This document shows positions 9,647 to 19,212 of a stretch of 64,000 nucleotides of DNA, piece by piece (the stretch's first letter is position 1; every line of letters starts with the position of its first letter). Under the pieces are notes generated by a model, which was given only the letters and a program-made list of their open reading frames with translations, had not been told where the DNA came from and did no database searches. The translations under genes were made by a program, and so were the position numbers. Origin of the DNA: Nocardioides marinus (lineage in GTDB: Bacteria > Pseudomonadota > Alphaproteobacteria > Rhodobacterales > Rhodobacteraceae); contig JAHVJD010000001.1 in NCBI GenBank assembly GCA_019801415.1, forward strand, positions 558,001 to 622,000, given 5' to 3'.

Positions 9647-11023
9647 CTAGTTGGTTATGATCTCCGGCCCCATCACCGCGTTCGGCAGCACCGTCGACAG
9701 CCAGGGCACGTAGGTGATCAGGATCAGGAAGACGAACAGCACCGCCAGGAACGGCAGGGCCGCCCGCACCACGGACATCATCGGCATGCCCGCAACGCCC
9801 GAGGTCACGAAGAGGTTCAGACCGACCGGCGGAGTGATCATGCCGATCTCCATGTTCACCACCATGATGATGCCCAGGTGGATCGGATCGATGCCCAGCT
9901 CGATGGCAATCGGGAACACCAGCGGCGCCACGATCACCAACAGGCCCGACGGCTCCATGAACTGGCCGCCGATCAGCAGGATCACGTTGACGACGATCAG
10001 GAACATGACCGGGCCGAAACCCGCCGACAGCATGGCATTGGCGATATGCTGCGGCACCTGCTCGTCGGTCAGAACATGCTTCAGGATCAGCGCATTGGCG
10101 ATCACGAACAACAGCGTCACGGTCAGCTTGCCCGCCTCGAACAGCGTGTGCTTGGTGTCGCTGTGCAGAAACGCGGTCAGCAGCGCATGCGGCTTCTTCA
10201 GCAGCGATGTCTTGGCCTCGCCCTCGCCATTGGAGAGCGGCCCCATGTCCTTGTAGACAAAGCTCGCGATGAAGAAGGCATAGACCGCCGCAACAGCCGC
10301 CGCCTCGGTGGGCGTGAAGATGCCGCCGTAGATGCCGCCGAGGATGATCACGATCAGGAACAGGCCCCAACCAGCCTCCCGGCCCGACGCGATGATCTCG
10401 CCCCAGCCCTTCCACTCGCCCTTGGGCAGGTTCTTCACCTTGGCCATCACGTAGATGGTCACCATCAGGAACAGGCCGGCCATCAGGCCCGGAATCACAC
10501 CCGCCAGGAACATCCGCCCGACCGAGACCTCGACCGCCGCGGCATAGACCACCATCACGATGGAGGGCGGGATCAGGATGCCCAGCGTGCCCGCGTTACA
10601 GATCACACCGGCCGCGAACTCCTTGGAGTAGCCCACCTGGCGCATGCCCGCGATCACGATCGAGCCGATCGCCACCACGGTTGCGGGCGACGACCCGGAC
10701 AGGGCCGCAAACAGCATGCAGGCAAAGACGCCGGCAATCGCCAGACCGCCCGGCAGGTGGCCGACGCAGGCGATGGAGAAGCGGATGATCCGCCGGGCCA
10801 CGCCGCCCGTGGTCATGAAGCTGGAGGCGAGGATGAAGAAGGGGATCGCCAGCAGGGTGAAATGGCCTTCGAAGGCTTCAAACAGCGTGCCGGCGACCGA
10901 CGCCAGCGAGCTGTCGGAATAGATCAGCAGAAAGATGGTCGAGCTGAGACCCAGGGACACCGCGATCGGCACCCCGATCAGCAACAGGCCGATCACCATC
11001 GCAAAGAGGATTACCACTTCCAT
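9647..11023 (-). CDS. dctM: TRAP transporter large permease, DctM type
   Basis: The 458-aa integral membrane protein has about 12 or more hydrophobic segments and the DctM features GILIPPSIVMVVYA, FTPTEAAAVAAVYAF and GMITPPVGLNLF. It is the ion-coupled translocation subunit of a tripartite transporter. It overlaps the stop of dctQ by one base (TGATG). The long cytoplasmic loop at about 270-300 is usual for dicarboxylate-type permeases. The linked DctBD genes suggest C4-dicarboxylates as substrate. Confidence 0.95.
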   Translation of the reverse strand: MEVVILFAMVIGLLLIGVPIAVSLGLSSTIFLLIYSDSSLASVAGTLFEAFEGHFTLLAIPFFILASSFMTTGGVARRIIRFSIACVGHLPGGLAIAGVFACMLFAALSGSSPATVVAIGSIVIAGMRQVGYSKEFAAGVICNAGTLGILIPPSIVMVVYAAAVEVSVGRMFLAGVIPGLMAGLFLMVTIYVMAKVKNLPKGEWKGWGEIIASGREAGWGLFLIVIILGGIYGGIFTPTEAAAVAAVYAFFIASFVYKDMGPLSNGEGEAKTSLLKKPHALLTAFLHSDTKHTLFEAGKLTVTLLFVIANALILKHVLTDEQVPQHIANAMLSAGFGPVMFLIVVNVILLIGGQFMEPSGLLVIVAPLVFPIAIELGIDPIHLGIIMVVNMEIGMITPPVGLNLFVTSGVAGMPMMSVVRAALPFLAVLFVFLILITYVPWLSTVLPNAVMGPEIITN

Positions 11024-11700
11024 CAGTCATGCTCCCCGCGCTGCGCCTGCACTTCTGCAATTTCATCTTCGACTTCATGGCTGGCGACCAGCCGGTCGGC
11101 CTCGCCGCGGGCGATCTGGAACGCCGCCTGGATGAACCGGACCACCAGCAGCAGGGTCGACACCGGCAGCACCACGTAAGGCACCACCTTGGGCAGCTTC
11201 TCGTAGGAATCGCCGTAGTTGATCAGGTCTTCGAGAAACCGCAGGAAGCTCACCATCGGCACGTCCTGCACCTCGTAAAAGCTCTGGCTGCGAGCCTTCA
11301 TGTCAAAGCCGGTCGGGAACCACCGCCCCGAGGTCGGCGGCAGGTCGGCGAACACCGCCCAGTAGTCATAGGCGCCCTTCAGCAGCAGCAGCGAGAACAC
11401 GATGCAGCAGGCGGCGGCAAACAGCCCCACCGCCCGGCGTGCGCCCGGGTTCAGCATGTTGACGATGGCGTCCACACCCAGATGCGCATGTGCCTTCACC
11501 GCGTAGGATGCCCCCAGCAGCACCAGCCAGGCGAACAGGAACACGGTCAGCTCCAGCGCCCACAGGATGTTGGAATTGAACACGAAACGCGCGATCACAT
11601 TGGCAAAGGTGATGATGGTCATCAGCCCCAGCAGCAGTGCGATCAGGGTTTCTTCGAGTGAATTGAGTAGCCCGGTTGGGCCGGTTCTTGCCCCCGACAT
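11023..11700 (-). CDS. dctQ: TRAP transporter small permease, DctQ type
   Basis: The 225-aa protein has four membrane segments (about 14-36, 46-66, 88-108 and 165-188) and the family motif around ANVIARFVFN and HLGVDAIV. A loop of roughly 45 residues lies between segments three and four, as in other dicarboxylate DctQ proteins. GGGGGAC precedes the ATG. The 114 bases between it and dctP include overlapping stem-loops (GGGTGC/GCACCC at 11759-11787), a layout that often lowers permease expression relative to the binding protein. Confidence 0.93.
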   Translation of the reverse strand: MSGARTGPTGLLNSLEETLIALLLGLMTIITFANVIARFVFNSNILWALELTVFLFAWLVLLGASYAVKAHAHLGVDAIVNMLNPGARRAVGLFAAACCIVFSLLLLKGAYDYWAVFADLPPTSGRWFPTGFDMKARSQSFYEVQDVPMVSFLRFLEDLINYGDSYEKLPKVVPYVVLPVSTLLLVVRFIQAAFQIARGEADRLVASHEVEDEIAEVQAQRGEHD

Positions 11701-11814: not shown

Positions 11815-12816
11815 TTAGAAGCCTGCGTTGATCGCTTGGGCGGCGTCGATCTTGTCCTGGCCGACATCGCCTGCGAATTTCTCCCAAACCGGCTTCATCG
11901 CCTCGACCCAAACCGCGCGCTGCTCGGGCGTCAGCTCACGCACCACGCCGCCGGCATCGATGATCGCCTGCTTGGCCTCGTTGTTGACCTTGGTGGATTC
12001 CGCGTTCCGCACCGCGGTCACCTCGTTCAGGATGGTCAGGAACTGCTCGCGCACCTCCGGCTCGAGGCTGTCCAGCCAGTCAACGGAGGTCACCACCAGG
12101 TAGTCCAGCACGCCGTGGTTGGTCTCGGTCACACCGTCCTGCACCTCGAAGAACTTCTTGCCGTAGATGTTGGACCAGGTGTTCTCCTGGCCGTCCACAA
12201 CACCCTGCTGCAGGGCACCGTAAACTTCCGAGAAGGCCATCTTCTGCGGGCTGCCGCCGATCGCTTCCATCTGCGCGACCAGCACGTCCGAGGACTGCAC
12301 GCGGAACTTCAGCCCGTTGGCGTCTTCCGGCGCCAGCAGCGGCTTGTTCGCCGACATCTGCTTCATGCCGTTGTGCCAGTAGGCCAGACCCTGCAGGCCG
12401 CGGCGCTGCATCGAATCCAGCATCTCCTGACCGGTCTCGGAGGCCTGGAACGCATCCACCGCCTCGATGTTCTTGAACATGAACGGCAGGTCGAACAGGC
12501 GGAACTGCTTGGTGAACTTCTCGAACTTGGACAGCGACGGTGCCGCCAGCTGTACGTCACCCTGCAGCATCGCCTCCAGCACCTTGTTGTCGTTGTAGAG
12601 GGTGGAGTTCGGATAGACCTCCAAGCACATGGTGCCGTTCATTTCCTCGTTGATACGCTTTTCCAACAGCGACGCGGCGATCCCCTTGGGGTGCTTGTCG
12701 GTGTTGGTGACGTGGCTGAATTTCACCACGATCTCGCCGTCGTCGCAGGCAGCGCTTGCCGCACCAGCGGTCACGGTCAGCGCCATCGCGGTGGCGGCAG
12801 CAGTCAGCATCTTCAT
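11815..12816 (-). CDS. dctP: TRAP transporter periplasmic substrate-binding protein, DctP type
   Basis: The 333-aa protein has a signal peptide (1 to about 22, ending GAASA). The mature domain contains the family hallmarks IVVKFSHV, GLKFRVQSSDVLVAQMEAIGGSP with the carboxylate-binding Arg, and GQENTWSNI. It delivers a C4-dicarboxylate such as malate, succinate or fumarate to DctQM; this is inferred from the linked DctBD. GGGAGGAA precedes the ATG. The upstream region carries three DctD-type boxes. Confidence 0.93.
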   Translation of the reverse strand: MKMLTAAATAMALTVTAGAASAACDDGEIVVKFSHVTNTDKHPKGIAASLLEKRINEEMNGTMCLEVYPNSTLYNDNKVLEAMLQGDVQLAAPSLSKFEKFTKQFRLFDLPFMFKNIEAVDAFQASETGQEMLDSMQRRGLQGLAYWHNGMKQMSANKPLLAPEDANGLKFRVQSSDVLVAQMEAIGGSPQKMAFSEVYGALQQGVVDGQENTWSNIYGKKFFEVQDGVTETNHGVLDYLVVTSVDWLDSLEPEVREQFLTILNEVTAVRNAESTKVNNEAKQAIIDAGGVVRELTPEQRAVWVEAMKPVWEKFAGDVGQDKIDAAQAINAGF

Positions 12817-12867
12817 GTCATTCCTCCCAGAATTGCAGTGCTGTGTTCAGCAGCATGGCTGAAACCC

Positions 12868-12881
12868 GCACATAACATCCC
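12868..12881 (-). promoter_or_regulatory. Degenerate sigma-54-like promoter candidate for dctP
   Basis: On the minus strand the invariant GG (12881-12880) and GC (12869-12868) are exactly 10 bases apart, which would start the transcript near 12857. The match to TGGCACG is 5 of 7 and to TTGC 3 of 4, so it is weak. It may be fortuitous, or a relic. Confidence 0.25.
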
Positions 12882-12884
12882 AAG

Positions 12885-12902
12885 TTGCGAAAATCCGCTC
12901 AA
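12885..12902 (-). promoter_or_regulatory. Degenerate DctD-type box, promoter-proximal
   Basis: The sequence TTGCGAAAATCCGCTCAA shares the spacer AAAATC and most of both half-sites with the perfect box at 13031-13052. It abuts the sigma-54-like candidate, so a bound regulator here would touch or block polymerase. Confidence 0.5.
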
Positions 12903-12998
12903 TAGTTGATTCGAGAATCACGAGACACGCCAATTTCATATTGTTTTTCAACGCGTTTTCTGGCCACCCCCGGAAACCTCCGCCAGCGCCTGCACGCG

Positions 12999-13018
12999 CT
13001 GTGCGAAATCCCGCACAG
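12999..13018 (-). promoter_or_regulatory. DctD-type upstream box, 7-6-7 inverted repeat
   Basis: CTGTGCG and CGCACAG form a perfect inverted repeat around six bases. The half-site TGTGCG is the one I know from DctD upstream activating sites in rhizobia. It is centred about 190 bases upstream of the dctP start. Confidence 0.75.
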
Positions 13019-13030
13019 GCCATTTCGGGC

Positions 13031-13052
13031 TTTGTGCGAAAATCCGCACAAA
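13031..13052 (-). promoter_or_regulatory. DctD-type upstream box, 8-6-8 inverted repeat
   Basis: TTTGTGCG and CGCACAAA form a perfect inverted repeat around AAAATC. Its centre is 33 bases (about three helix turns) from the box at 12999-13018, so both lie on one face of the DNA, the usual arrangement for cooperative enhancer sites. Confidence 0.78.
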
Positions 13053-13438: not shown

Positions 13439-14668
13439 TCAGCGGCGATAATCCTCGGGGCGGATGCCATAGCGGGCCAGCTTGTCATAGAAGGTCTTGC
13501 GGGGCAGCTTCAGGGCTTGCGCCGCCACAGCCGCGCGCCCGTTGGCCCGCCCCAGCGCCGCGATCAGCAGCGAGCGCTCCACCTGCGCCATCTGCTCCGC
13601 AAGGCCAAGCCCCGCGCTCGCCGCCGCCTCCTCGGGCATGCCCAGCACGAACCGCATCGCCGCCGACATCAGGGACCGGGTATTGCCCGGCCAGTCCTGG
13701 GCCATCAGCGCCGCCAGATGTTCCTGGCTGATCTCCGGCGGCTGGATGCCCGCCTGTTCCGCCGCCTGCGCCACGTAGTGACGAAACAGCACCGGAATAT
13801 CGCCGGGACGTTCCGCCAGCGAGGGGATGCGCACCCGCATCACGTCCAGCCGGTAGAACAGATCGGCGTTGAAGGCACCCTGCTCCACCTGCCCGGCCAG
13901 ATCGGCGCTGGACCCCGCGATCACCCGCGTGCCCGCGCCCTGTTCCAACTGCCCCAACAGCGCATATTGCGCGGCCTCGGGCAGGCTCTGCACCTCGTCG
14001 AGAAACAGCGAGCCCCCGGCGGCGTCCTTGCACAGGCTGACGACATCGGCCTGCCCCAGCCCGGCAGCGGCGCGTTTCACGAAGGGGCCCTGGCCGACCG
14101 GGGACATCAGGTGGATGACCTCCGCCACCTTGGAAATGCCGCTGCCCGGCGGCCCCGAGACCAGCACCTCGGCCCCGGTCGGGGCCACCGTGCGCACCCG
14201 GCGGCGCAGCGCACTGGCCTGCGGCGAGCTGCCGAACAGCATCCGCGAAGCGGGATCGCCGGTCTCCAGCTGCTGTTTCAGACGGCGGTTTTCCAGCACC
14301 AGCGCGCGGGTCCGCAGGGCGCGCTCCAGCACCGGCAGGAAATCGGCGGCGACACAGGGTTTTTCCAGGAAATCAAACGCCCCCCGCGACATCGCCCGGA
14401 CCGCCATCGGAATGTCGCCCTCACCGGTCAGTAGCACCACCGGCAGCTCGGGGTCGACCTCATGGGCATAGTCCAGCAGGTGAAACCCGTCGCGCCCCGG
14501 CATCCGGATGTCAGAGACGATGATGCCGTCGAACTCCCGCGTGATCAGATCCTTGGCCGCCACGAAGGAGCCCGCGGTGACCGCGTCCAGCTCGTTCAGC
14601 TCCAGCGTCTGCGCCAATGCGGCGCGCACCGCCGCATCGTCGTCGACCAGCAAAACCCTGCGTGTCAT
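13439..14668 (-). CDS. dctD: DctD-family response regulator lacking sigma-54 activation motifs
   Basis: The 409-aa protein has the three-domain NtrC/DctD layout. A receiver domain (1-120) has the acceptor Asp53 in SDIRMPG and Lys103 in FLEKP. The AAA+-derived region (about 140-345) keeps the Walker B FLDEV (224-225) and DLFYRLDVMRVRIPSL. A Fis-type HTH lies at about 370-402. Two key elements are missing: the Walker A lysine is replaced (GPPGSGI, Ile178), and the segment that should carry GAFTGA is shortened to DVVSLCKDAAGGS. It should therefore be unable to remodel sigma-54 polymerase. Its ATG overlaps the dctB stop (ATGA); I chose 14668 over the longer frame for that reason. Confidence 0.85.
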   Translation of the reverse strand: MTRRVLLVDDDAAVRAALAQTLELNELDAVTAGSFVAAKDLITREFDGIIVSDIRMPGRDGFHLLDYAHEVDPELPVVLLTGEGDIPMAVRAMSRGAFDFLEKPCVAADFLPVLERALRTRALVLENRRLKQQLETGDPASRMLFGSSPQASALRRRVRTVAPTGAEVLVSGPPGSGISKVAEVIHLMSPVGQGPFVKRAAAGLGQADVVSLCKDAAGGSLFLDEVQSLPEAAQYALLGQLEQGAGTRVIAGSSADLAGQVEQGAFNADLFYRLDVMRVRIPSLAERPGDIPVLFRHYVAQAAEQAGIQPPEISQEHLAALMAQDWPGNTRSLMSAAMRFVLGMPEEAAASAGLGLAEQMAQVERSLLIAALGRANGRAAVAAQALKLPRKTFYDKLARYGIRPEDYRR

Positions 14669-16434
14669 GCCGCCTCTTCCTCTTTCCAATATTCCAGCTC
14701 CACCGTGAACACCGCGCCGCGCTCAGCGTTGGAGCCGCGAATGTTGCCGCCAAAGCTCTGCACCAGACCGTAGGAAATGGACAGCCCCAACCCCATCCCC
14801 TCGGAGGAGCCCACCGCCTTGGTCGAGTAGAACGGATCAAACACCTTTTCCGGCTCCTTCAGGCCGGGGCCGATGTCCTGCACGGTGACAGACAGCCGCG
14901 CGCCGCGGTGCACCTGCAGGCGGATCACCCGGTCCTCCTGGTCCAGCATCGCGTCCACCGCGTTGTTGATCAGGTTCACGAAGACCTGCGTGAGCCGCAC
15001 CTCGCCGCCGCGCACGAAAATCTCTCCGCGCGGCTGCGGCGCCCAGTCCAGGCGCACGGAACACTCGCGCAGCCGCGTCTGGGTCAGCTCCACCGCATCC
15101 TCCAGAACCTTGGCGAGGTCGACCTTTCCGACCGGCTCGCTCTCGTTGCGGGCAAAGGCACGCAGGTTCTTGATGATCCGCGCCATCCGCGCCGCCATGT
15201 CGGAGATCCGTGCCAGGTTCTCGCCCGTGCGCTCGGCCTTGCCACGGGCGAGGAAGGCGGCGCCGTTCTCGGCATATTGCTGGATCGCCATCAGGGGCTG
15301 GTTCAGCTCGTGGCTGATGCCCGCCGACATCTGCCCCAGCGCCGACAGTTTGCCCGCCTGCACCAGGTCCTGCTGCGCCCGCTTCAAGGCGGCCTCCGCC
15401 TCCTCGCGCTCGCGCACCTCGCGGCGCAGCTGCACGTTGGCGGCAGACAGCGCCTCGGTGCGCTGCGCCACCCGGCTTTCCAGCACCGCATTGGCCTCGG
15501 CCAGGGTGCGGCGGCGCTCCATCACGAAGAACAGCATGGCCCCGAAGGCAAGGCACACCGCCGCCAGCGCCGCCGCCTGCAGCGCGGCGATCCGCCGGGC
15601 CGGCGCCACATCCACCAGGATTTCTCCGGTCATGCCGATCACCGGCAACGCCACCGACAGATGCAAGGCGCGCGCGGGCAAATACGGGCTGCCCGCCAGC
15701 CGCCAGATCTCATGCGGGCCGATGTGCCATTGGGCCAGCACCCGGGGTCGACTCGCCGCCGCTTCCGGCCCCGGCCCCGCCGTGCCGCCCGCCACCGCCG
15801 CCTTGCGGTTCCAGAACAGCAGCTCGGACCGGTTGGCGATGAACACTTCGCCGCTGGCCACGGTAAAGAACACCGCCGGCAGGCTGCCGCGCCACGTCTG
15901 TTCCACGTCCTCGATATCCGCAACCACCACAAGCGCGCCGCGAACGCGCCCATCGCTGCCAAAGGCAGGCGCGGCGTAGAAATAGGCCCGCTGGTCGTCG
16001 GGCCGCAACACGCCATGGCCGGTGCCCAGCGCCCCCTGTTGCGCGCGCCGGAAATAGGCCTGGTCGGCCACGCTGCTGCCCACCACGCCCTCGGCTGCCG
16101 CCAGCACCCGGCCCGAGGAATCGGTAAAGAACACGTCCAGCGCCGCGGTCTTGTCCGCGATCGAGCGCAGCAGATCCGCCGCCGCCGCCCGGGCCACCGG
16201 CTCCGACAGGTCGCGCAGCACCGGGTGTTCCGCCGTCAGCACCGCCAGCTCCTGGTAGACTTCCAGCTGGGTGCTGACCCGGTCCGACGCCAGCGCCAGG
16301 TCGGCGGCGCTGCGTTCGGCCAGGCTGTCCAGCGCCTGCCGGTAGCCATAGGACCAGACCGCCAGCGCCAGCGCCGCGACGGCCAGCAGGAAGCCCACGG
16401 GCAGGCTCCAGCGGATCAGAGTTTGTGCTTTCAT
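14665..16434 (-). CDS. dctB: DctB-type sensor histidine kinase for C4-dicarboxylates
   Basis: The 589-aa protein has membrane segments at about 9-29 and 283-303 that enclose a periplasmic sensor region with tandem PAS-like folds (about 35-280), as in rhizobial DctB. A coiled coil (308-358) leads to the dimerisation/phosphoacceptor motif GISHELNQPL (His375), followed by N-box (NLINNAVDAM), DIGPGL and GMGLGLSI of the ATPase domain. It would sense periplasmic dicarboxylates and phosphorylate the adjacent DctD. All kinase motifs are intact, in contrast to the regulator. It is divergent from the P450 gene. Confidence 0.93.
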   Translation of the reverse strand: MKAQTLIRWSLPVGFLLAVAALALAVWSYGYRQALDSLAERSAADLALASDRVSTQLEVYQELAVLTAEHPVLRDLSEPVARAAAADLLRSIADKTAALDVFFTDSSGRVLAAAEGVVGSSVADQAYFRRAQQGALGTGHGVLRPDDQRAYFYAAPAFGSDGRVRGALVVVADIEDVEQTWRGSLPAVFFTVASGEVFIANRSELLFWNRKAAVAGGTAGPGPEAAASRPRVLAQWHIGPHEIWRLAGSPYLPARALHLSVALPVIGMTGEILVDVAPARRIAALQAAALAAVCLAFGAMLFFVMERRRTLAEANAVLESRVAQRTEALSAANVQLRREVREREEAEAALKRAQQDLVQAGKLSALGQMSAGISHELNQPLMAIQQYAENGAAFLARGKAERTGENLARISDMAARMARIIKNLRAFARNESEPVGKVDLAKVLEDAVELTQTRLRECSVRLDWAPQPRGEIFVRGGEVRLTQVFVNLINNAVDAMLDQEDRVIRLQVHRGARLSVTVQDIGPGLKEPEKVFDPFYSTKAVGSSEGMGLGLSISYGLVQSFGGNIRGSNAERGAVFTVELEYWKEEEAA

Positions 16435-17767: not shown

Positions 17768-18244
17768 TCAGACCGCCACGCTGTCCAGCGGCAGCATGGT
17801 GGTCGACTTGATCTCCTCCATCGACAACAGCGCGGTGACGTTGTGTACCTTCACCTCCGAGATCAGCGCCTGGTAGAACACGTCATAGGCCCGCGCGTTC
17901 TGTACCCGTACCTTCAGGATATAGTCGATATCCCCCGCCAGCCGGTGCGCCTCCTGCACCTCGGGGCGGTCGCGCAGGGCCTGCAGGAACTTTGCCTGCC
18001 ACTCCGCCTCGTGCTCCGAGGTGCGGATCAGGACAAAGAAACAGGCCTCGAACCCCAGCGCCTCGGCATCCAGCAGCACCGTCTGCTGACCGATCACCCC
18101 CGCCTCACGCAGCTTGCGGATTCGATTCCACACCGGCGTCTTTGACGAGCCCACCCGGCGGGCGATTTCATCCAGAGACTGGCTGGCGTCGCGTTGCAGT
18201 TCAGCCAGAATTTTCCGGTCCGTGCCGTCGATCCGCACCGTCAT
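17768..18244 (-). CDS. Lrp/AsnC-family regulator, likely of the sulfate assimilation operon
   Basis: The 158-aa protein has an N-terminal HTH (about 5-60, DRKILAELQRDASQSLDEIARRVGSSKTPVWNRI) and a C-terminal RAM domain (about 68-150). GGAGAAAACAG precedes the ATG at 18244. It is divergent from cobA-cysI-cysH, and the 149-base intergenic region carries a long inverted repeat (18322-18355). By position it probably controls that operon in response to a sulfur metabolite or amino acid; this is inference. The longer frame to 18403 runs into the promoter region. Confidence 0.88.
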   Translation of the reverse strand: MTVRIDGTDRKILAELQRDASQSLDEIARRVGSSKTPVWNRIRKLREAGVIGQQTVLLDAEALGFEACFFVLIRTSEHEAEWQAKFLQALRDRPEVQEAHRLAGDIDYILKVRVQNARAYDVFYQALISEVKVHNVTALLSMEEIKSTTMLPLDSVAV

Positions 18245-18321
18245 TCCTGTTTTCTCCTTGTCTGAGGACCAATCAGCCCGGCTTCGCGCCGCGCAGAAAC
18301 CAATGTTCTTATTTATCCGCC

Positions 18322-18355
18322 GATATAGCGCAATGGCGGGAATATTTCCTATATC
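18322..18355. promoter_or_regulatory. Inverted repeat in the lrp-cobA divergent promoter region
   Basis: GATATAG and CTATATC are perfect inverse halves separated by 20 bases, about 2.5 helix turns between centres. The spacing suits a dimer or tetramer of the adjacent Lrp-type regulator. It lies 39 bases before the cobA start. Confidence 0.45.
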
Positions 18356-18393
18356 TACAGCCAAGTCAAACACACACCACAGAGGGTACAGGG

Positions 18394-19212
18394 ATGTCCG
18401 CACCTACGACACATGCCGCTATTGCCACCGCTCACGTTCGCGGCGGCATGTGTTGCCTGGTTGCGGGCGAGGTTGCCTTTGCGGGCTCCGGCCCGGGCGA
18501 CCCGGAGCTGCTCACCCTCAAGGTGCTGCGCGCCCTGCAAGAGGCCGATGTCATCCTGCATGATCGCCTAGTGTCCGACGCCGTCCTGGCCCTGGCCGGT
18601 CCGCAAGCCGCGCTGGAAAACGTCGGCAAGGAAGGCTTTGGCCCGCAGGTCAGCCAGGAGGAGATCAACGCCCGCCTGGTGGCCCATGCCAAGGCCGGCA
18701 GGAAGGTGCTGCGCCTGAAGGCCGGCGATCCCACCATCTTTGCCCGCCTGGACGAAGAGCTGTCGGCGCTGGAGGCGGCAGGCATCGCCAGCCAGATCCT
18801 GCCCGGCATCACCGCCGCCTCCGCCGCCGTTGCCGCCATCGGCCAGAGCCTGACCCAGCGCGGCCGCAATTCCTCGGTGCGGTTCCTGACCGGCCACGAC
18901 ATGAAGGGCTTTGCCGACCACGACTGGGCCGCGCTGGCGCGCCCCGGTGCGGTGGCCGCGGTCTATATGGGCAAGAAATCCGCCCGCTTCGTGCAGGGCC
19001 GCCTGATCATGCACGGGGCCGACCGCGCCATGCCGGTCACCCTCGTCGAAAACGCCTCTCGCCCCGAACAGCGGGTGCTGGAAACCACGCTGGAACGCCT
19101 GCCTGCCGACCTCGACGCGGCCGGGCTGGACGGTCCTGCCCTCACCTTCCTGGGGCTCGCGCCGCGCAAAGCGGCCGCCGCCCTCACCGATCTCAAGACG
19201 GAGCTTGCATAA
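18394..19212 (+). CDS. cobA: Uroporphyrinogen-III C-methyltransferase (siroheme branch)
   Basis: The 272-aa SAM-dependent enzyme makes precorrin-2 for siroheme, the cofactor of the sulfite reductase encoded downstream. It has the SUMT signatures AGSGPGDPELLTLKVLRAL, LRLKAGDPTIFAR and PGITAASAAVAAIG. Compared with CysG it lacks the N-terminal dehydrogenase/ferrochelatase domain, so it is of the CobA type. AGAGGG lies before the ATG. The stop overlaps the next start (TAATG), placing it as first gene of the sulfate assimilation operon. Confidence 0.95.
   Translation: MSAPTTHAAIATAHVRGGMCCLVAGEVAFAGSGPGDPELLTLKVLRALQEADVILHDRLVSDAVLALAGPQAALENVGKEGFGPQVSQEEINARLVAHAKAGRKVLRLKAGDPTIFARLDEELSALEAAGIASQILPGITAASAAVAAIGQSLTQRGRNSSVRFLTGHDMKGFADHDWAALARPGAVAAVYMGKKSARFVQGRLIMHGADRAMPVTLVENASRPEQRVLETTLERLPADLDAAGLDGPALTFLGLAPRKAAAALTDLKTELA

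Follow-up and report, generated by a model that had tools for sequence, protein, structure and literature searches.

The DctD protein encoded in the window, by which we mean the whole 64,000-nucleotide stretch of DNA that was analysed, belongs to a large clade of NtrC-family regulators which have lost both the GAFTGA loop and the Walker A lysine. Sequence comparison suggests that this DctD is a phosphorylation-controlled, ATP-independent activator of a sigma-70-type RNA polymerase at the transporter genes dctPQM, and we give this reading a probability of roughly 0.7.

The DctD protein and its locus

The dctD gene (13439-14668, minus strand) is an intact open reading frame of 409 amino acids that starts with an ATG at 14668 and overlaps the 3' end of dctB. 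A receiver (residues 5-109), a sigma-54-activator AAA domain, an AAA lid and a Fis HTH were all detected in this one protein, in agreement with the earlier note, which had listed receiver, AAA-derived and Fis-type HTH domains as kept. Its further claims of an isoleucine at position 178 in place of the Walker A lysine (GPPGSGI) and of a kept Walker B (FLDEV, D224 E225) were confirmed by the sequence. The sigma-54 activator model matched DctD in two parts (profile positions 2-60 and 89-167), indicating that the part with the GAFTGA loop is absent, and Walker B follows Walker A at a distance of 45 residues, compared with 64 in the GAFTGA-bearing relative L220, so that the loss of the loop described in that note also holds. 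The first Arg finger is replaced by N267. Thus, the features of a sigma-54-dependent bEBP are incomplete in DctD, the GAFTGA loop being absent and the Walker A GxxxxGK and both Arg fingers not all being present. DctD agrees with the Rhodobacter capsulatus NtrC type in being an NtrC-family protein without GAFTGA, but it has not kept the ATP-binding residues of that type.

The dN/dS values of the AAA domain were 0.10-0.22 in seven pairs that included the window protein and 0.03-0.11 in six other pairs. Such values indicate that the AAA domain, like all domains of DctD, is under purifying selection.

The adjacent dctB (14665-16434, minus strand), which shares 4 bp with dctD, encodes a sensor histidine kinase of 589 amino acids. 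HisKA and HATPase domains were present and the H, N and G box strings were kept, so the kinase partner is intact, as had been claimed. Downstream of dctD, on the same strand and after a gap of 622 bp, are dctP (11815-12816), encoding a TRAP solute-binding protein and predicted to be the target gene of DctD, dctQ (11023-11700), encoding the TRAP small membrane protein, and dctM (9647-11023), encoding the large one. A DctB-type kinase gene and dicarboxylate transporter genes therefore adjoin dctD, as expected for a DctD orthologue. A cytochrome P450 gene (PF00067; 16493-17674, plus strand) is divergent from dctB, and relatives of it were found by tblastn in 120 of 227 fetched loci. An Lrp/AsnC-type regulator gene is also located near dctB (17768-18403, minus strand); such a gene was found in 77 of the 227 loci, many of those stretches ending short of its position.

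Functional evidence comes from Ruegeria pomeroyi DSS-3, in which OD on fumarate was reduced by 99.1% for the mutants of SPO2626 (dctM), 96.7% for SPO2628 (dctP) and 96.9% for SPO2630 (PMC10130141, Table 1). The available part of the same paper gives dctPQM as the only fumarate uptake route of this species. SPO2630 is named a sensor protein in an excerpt of PMC4809877 and a regulatory protein in a table of PMC10041152; based on these names and on how the genes are arranged in R. pomeroyi SZCCDBG043 (L107), it was taken as dctB. The DctD of SZCCDBG043 reads GPAGSGI and has no loop, and the strain has RpoN. Since the SPO2630 mutant resembles the dctP and dctM mutants, the DctBD system is needed for dctPQM to function. 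The published dctB mutant thus supports positive control of dctPQM in DSS-3, from which we infer activation by DctD. Among the matches listed for open-licence PMC articles, no title or abstract beginning dealt with a DctD lacking GAFTGA or the Walker A lysine, and no experiment on the DctD of the window was found.

Relatives of DctD, RpoN and the order of the losses

At E 1e-40, 286 of 295 family genomes matched the window protein. A total of 227 loci were examined: 30 from the family-genome search, 80 named ones that ranked best among 546 and were in many cases kin of Leisingera, Ruegeria, Tritonibacter, Phaeobacter and Roseovarius, and 117 fetched further. Three genes were left out of the fetch, namely those of G220, which runs into a contig end, G079, which is partial (50%), and G165, which has an internal stop; L122, which has an internal TAA, was counted through its 318-amino-acid open piece only. 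The short-DctD set consists of 204 fetched relatives with more than 51% identity to the window protein, representing 193 distinct proteins.

The earlier note had proposed a comparison across relatives, and the loss turned out to be clade-wide. No GAFTGA-like string was found in the 204 relatives, and neither the Walker A lysine nor the first Arg finger (R267) occurred in any of the 193 distinct proteins. Position 178 was occupied by I (124), T (36), V (23), N (4), L (3) or, once each, F, M and S. The distance between Walker A and Walker B was 45 residues in 192 of them and 44 in one. Other residues were kept: the Walker B DE and the second Arg (273) each in 168/193, the sensor-II R331 in 191/193, the phosphorylation site D53 in 192/193, and K103 as well as R390, T392, D395 and K396 of the HTH in all 193. 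An assembly or frameshift error, which had been named as a possible refutation, was rejected because the 204 relatives show the same state. K180 (190/193), G252 (190/193) and M334 (189/193) are conserved in the short clade and differ in relatives of the GAFTGA or GAFPGA type; a new contact surface may lie at these three positions.

Across the class, 289 genomes were sampled, and six of them matched at E 1e-75. Four of these, the window's genome included, belonged to its own family with at least 63% identity; the other two matches, from other families, were L244, a DctD with GAFTGA, and L245, a DctD that lacks Walker B. L245, from another alphaproteobacterial family, is absent from the tree described below and was assigned by its Walker-B-less look. 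More distant DctD-like proteins (L226-L228, L230-L232, L235 and L237) carry GAFPGA or GAYPGA, in which Pro takes the place of Thr, and their genomes include some that have RpoN and some that do not. Proline at that position is described as common among deviating homologues in an excerpt of PMC3162934.

The window's genome (3.89 Mb, judged 100% complete) gave no match to RpoN with the families PF04552 and PF04963; the same two-family searches were positive in 4 of 14 control genomes. Ten PF00158 matches were detected in this genome, two of them in Clp-type ATPases by their look and the rest in six NtrC-family proteins. As judged by eye, GAFTGA is intact in none of these six: one (L001) carries GAVPGA, and the others have shortened loops. 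The Walker A lysine is lost only in the DctD of the window, the five other NtrC-family proteins keeping it.

Across the family, RpoN was above the cut-off in 92 of 295 genomes, and 203 had no match above it. RpoN was present in 26 of 124 genomes with a short DctD vs 65 of 171 without one (Fisher p 0.002, uncorrected for kinship). In these counts G075 (23.2 bits over 41 amino acids) was taken as negative, and the partial matches of G021, G026, G027 and G031, the last with an internal TAG, as positive. The match of G031 (G031:C54:1297-1632), with a 118-amino-acid open frame, is possibly a decaying rpoN, and this genome has a short DctD. The presence or absence of RpoN across Rhodobacterales has already been tabulated for another module, AprX, according to the available part of PMC11999139. 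That the loop was simply lost as a result of RpoN loss was rejected, since the link is not tight: 26 of the 124 short-DctD genomes carry RpoN, and loop loss therefore does not require RpoN loss.

Phylogenetic analysis covered 70 rows, from which the columns of Walker A and of the loop had been taken out, and used a quick search with SH-aLRT as the only support; the own-genome rows formed long branches and the outgroup did not fall on one side of a branch. L220, which has GAFTGA and the Walker A lysine, was outermost in the DctD-dctPQM group (support 99), so that the short clade grouped with a GAFTGA-bearing, dctPQM-adjacent protein, as DctD orthologues should. It was followed by L216 (93) and then by L215 and L217 (98), without GAFTGA and with the Walker A lysine. 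Next came two sister clades (98). One, with 42 rows (99), has lost the Walker A lysine. In the other, with eight rows (100; L218, L219, L221-L224, L229 and L233), Walker B is replaced by K-containing stretches such as SLKNL, the Walker A position is K in six rows and R in two, and dctP is divergent and located upstream of dctB. Walker A and Walker B come closer in steps, from 64 residues apart in L220 to 54 in L215-L217 and 45 or 44 in the short clade; in the Walker-B-less clade they are 44 residues apart (39 in one row). The tree order and the stepwise distances indicate that the loop was lost first and the ATPase motifs later, twice and by opposite routes, Walker A in the clade of the window and Walker B separately in the sister clade.

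DNA between dctD and dctP

Two palindromes are located on the minus strand between dctD and dctP, UAS1 (13033-13050, TGTGCGGATTTTCGCACA) and UAS2 (13000-13017, TGTGCGGGATTTCGCACA), 33 bp apart and centred about 174 and 141 bp upstream of the predicted dctP start, which is placed near 12867, some 51 nt before the ATG. Both are candidate DctD sites. No dctP was found downstream in the stretch examined for 14 of the 204 short-DctD loci, which leaves 190; two TGTGCG-N6-CGCACA palindromes (at most four mismatches over both) were present upstream of dctP in 179 of these, with start-to-start spacings of 32, 33 and 34 bp in 88, 88 and 3 loci, respectively. The exact site pair occurs in the own genome only at dctP. 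A wider DctD regulon, searched for by exact sites only, was rejected: one further exact palindrome was found (contig C10), which is probably due to chance since a reversed-pattern control gave the same count (1).

An unsupervised motif search in 169 distinct sequences identified TTGAGC-N17-xxxxxT, whose start lies 95-99 bp downstream of UAS2 in 135 of them. In the window, this corresponds to a predicted -35 (TTGAGC, 12897-12902, minus strand) and a weak predicted -10 (GATGTT, 12874-12879, minus strand) separated by a 17-bp spacer. The EM score was 16.8 for all 169 sequences vs 6.9 for shuffled sequence, with 15 starts for the real sequences and 8 for the control; the shuffles used here and in the IHF and -24/-12 comparisons keep base composition only. 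In a nearly one-per-genus set, the motif was located 94-100 bp after UAS2 in 78 of 101 loci with the UAS pair, including the TTG in 76 and the last T of the -10 in 70 of those 78, and the fixed -35 was missing in the other 23. A scan with an E. coli-type consensus found no sigma-70 promoter in the region, the conserved -35 and -10 departing from that consensus. Tandem sites and a conserved TTG-N17-type element thus precede dctP, whose start is a predicted one. A possible third DctD half-site lies over the -35 in the window (GCGGATTTTCGC, by eye).

With identical stretches counted once and dctP downstream, the UAS pair was found in 18 of 23 RpoN-positive and 83 of 89 RpoN-negative loci. The fixed -35 was rarer in RpoN-positive genomes (11 of 18 UAS-bearing loci vs 67 of 83).

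Between the palindromes and the -35 there is a conserved IHF-like element (12945-12959, minus strand in the window), YAA-N4-TTGA followed by A-rich DNA. In 123 of 139 sequences, the start of the corresponding 20-bp motif, YAA-N4-(T)TGA with A-rich DNA, lies 57-59 bp upstream of the -35. The IHF consensus with at most one mismatch was found in reverse orientation in 40 of 139, compared with 7.9 in shuffles, and showed no clear excess in forward orientation (10 of 139 vs 6.9).

A hidden -24/-12 promoter at dctP was rejected, as the 190 short-DctD loci showed no excess over shuffles (mean best score 19.9 vs 19.8), scored with our own weight scheme on the -24/-12 consensus. L220 has a -24/-12-like sequence (TGGCATGGATTCTGCA) together with a UAS pair 32 bp apart with one and two mismatches, and this single locus suggests that the ancestral promoter was a sigma-54 one. 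Downstream of the GAFTGA-bearing L244, no site pair could be recognised and no strong -24/-12 match was found, so that this locus is uninformative on the ancestral promoter. In the eight Walker-B-less loci of the tree, no pair spaced 25-40 bp was found upstream of the divergent dctP. At least one palindrome with no more than one mismatch is present in seven of them, and in three of these seven a second one (0-2 mismatches) lies at a distance of 41 bp; in L224, the only one carries two mismatches.

Regulation of dctPQM and comparison with known systems

We infer the site binding, the role of IHF, the sigma factor, the ATP independence and the activation step of DctD as follows. DctB would phosphorylate DctD, which would be a dedicated activator of dctPQM and no longer an ATP-driven sigma-54 activator. 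Phospho-DctD would bind the two palindromes, and IHF or an intrinsic bend between would bring it to an RNA polymerase with a factor of the sigma-70 family, located at the weak TTGAGC-N17-xxxxxT promoter. There it would contact or recruit the polymerase with no ATP being hydrolysed, and its AAA domain would persist as a folded, selected scaffold for oligomerisation or RNA polymerase contact and not as a motor. The sigma-54 independence is strongly supported by the lack of an RpoN match in the genome, the clade-wide loss of the loop and of ATP-site residues and the lack of a -24/-12 excess. The use of sigma-70, which the earlier note had put forward, is supported by the conserved -35/-10-like element, its 17-bp spacing and its fixed distance from the palindromes; on the other side stands the negative E. 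coli consensus scan.

Another sigma-70-family factor, RpoH-like or ECF, may read the promoter in an otherwise identical mechanism, as the weak -10 allows. Both the conserved -35, (C/G)TTGAGCG, and the -10, which is poor, deviate from the E. coli consensus, but the 17-bp spacer and the TTG...T pattern fit the sigma-70 type, and we regard this sub-case, whose odds overlap with those of the main reading, as unlikely. It is also unlikely that DctD retains a non-canonical mode of nucleotide binding, or assembles into mixed rings with a paralogue that is ATPase-competent, and still needs ATP binding at a sigma-70 promoter, as does R. capsulatus NtrC. The Walker B DE counts against a fully dead site, which need not keep it; the sensor-II Arg and K180, two residues past position 178, are also retained, and five NtrC-family proteins in the genome could offer a Walker A lysine. 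ATP independence is not to be presumed, since the GAFTGA-less NtrC proteins of Caulobacter and R. capsulatus need the Walker A lysine and ATP binding, respectively (available part of PMC10274813). However, no protein of the short clade retains the Walker A lysine or the first Arg finger, all eight rows of the sister clade lost Walker B instead, as expected were ATP turnover dispensable, and a mixed ring would require a partner in every genome.

If DctD were a repressor of dctPQM released by DctB-dependent phosphorylation, it would stay bound without DctB and keep the promoter shut, and a dctB insertion would likewise abolish growth on fumarate, provided that it was not polar on dctD. Some GAFTGA-less bEBPs are repressors as well, and repression by NtrC at sigma-70 promoters has been described (PMC10274813, in part). 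But UAS2 is 97 bp from the -35 in the window, far from the core promoter, and dctB and dctD overlap, so that a dctB insertion would likely lower DctD and, with a repressor, lead to derepression. The -10 is also weak, as is often the case in activated promoters. The repressor or anti-activator that the earlier note had offered as an alternative has become less likely, given the distal palindromes and the R. pomeroyi dctB mutant, which behaves on fumarate like those of dctP and dctM (PMC10130141, in part); we consider the repressor improbable. That DctD is a decaying pseudo-regulator is hardly credible: its catalytic motifs are lost, but the frame is intact, all domains are under purifying selection, and sites and gene order are conserved.

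On a larger scale, we give even odds to a family-wide rewiring from sigma-54 to sigma-70, in which the enhancer pair and the bending site were kept, the promoter class changed, GAFTGA was lost stepwise and the ATPase motifs were lost twice in opposite ways, giving a large clade of long-range, ATP-free activators with a dead AAA domain. In textbooks, activation at a distance through enhancer-like sites is linked to sigma-54 and the hydrolysis of ATP. The proteins form a graded series, from GAFTGA with ATPase motifs, over ATPase motifs without GAFTGA, to no GAFTGA with one ATPase motif gone, and share the kinase type, the target type and partly the DNA sites; the role of the ATPase at sigma-70 promoters is therefore directly testable in this natural series. 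For annotation, it matters that sigma-54 interaction domain models still match these DctD proteins in a family in which most genomes gave no RpoN match above the cut-off.

The DctD of Sinorhizobium meliloti, which has GAFTGA, is a sigma-54 activator of the classical kind, and its target is dctA instead of dctPQM. R. capsulatus NtrC has tandem sites more than 100 bp upstream, as do the candidate sites of DctD, and its regulon differs from that of DctD. It is likewise of the NtrC type without GAFTGA, and it is reported to activate through sigma-70, as the earlier note had stated, once phosphorylated (PMC10274813, in part); according to the same source it needs ATP binding, whereas the DctD clade has lost the Walker A lysine in 193/193 proteins. 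Caulobacter NtrC, also a GAFTGA-less bEBP, acts at sigma-70 promoters and needs both Walker motifs; its K178A (Walker A) and D235A (Walker B) alleles gave no growth with ammonium as nitrogen source (PMC10274813, in part). The nucleotide site of Brucella NtrX (5m7n) appears to work, since the protein was crystallised with ATP and with ADP, according to the structure titles. Vibrio cholerae VpsR binds c-di-GMP (PDB title) and is said not to require phosphorylation in an excerpt of PMC10274813; it is also said not to need ATP. The DctD clade would sit with VpsR on ATP independence but has retained its kinase partner and tandem sites acting at long range. GAFTGA-less bEBPs acting with sigma-70 are already known, including R. 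capsulatus NtrC, HupR, TyrR, DhaR, VpsR and Caulobacter NtrC (PMC3162934 and PMC10274813, both in part), and the DctD clade would add to them a form without the Walker A lysine that has a kinase and distal tandem sites.
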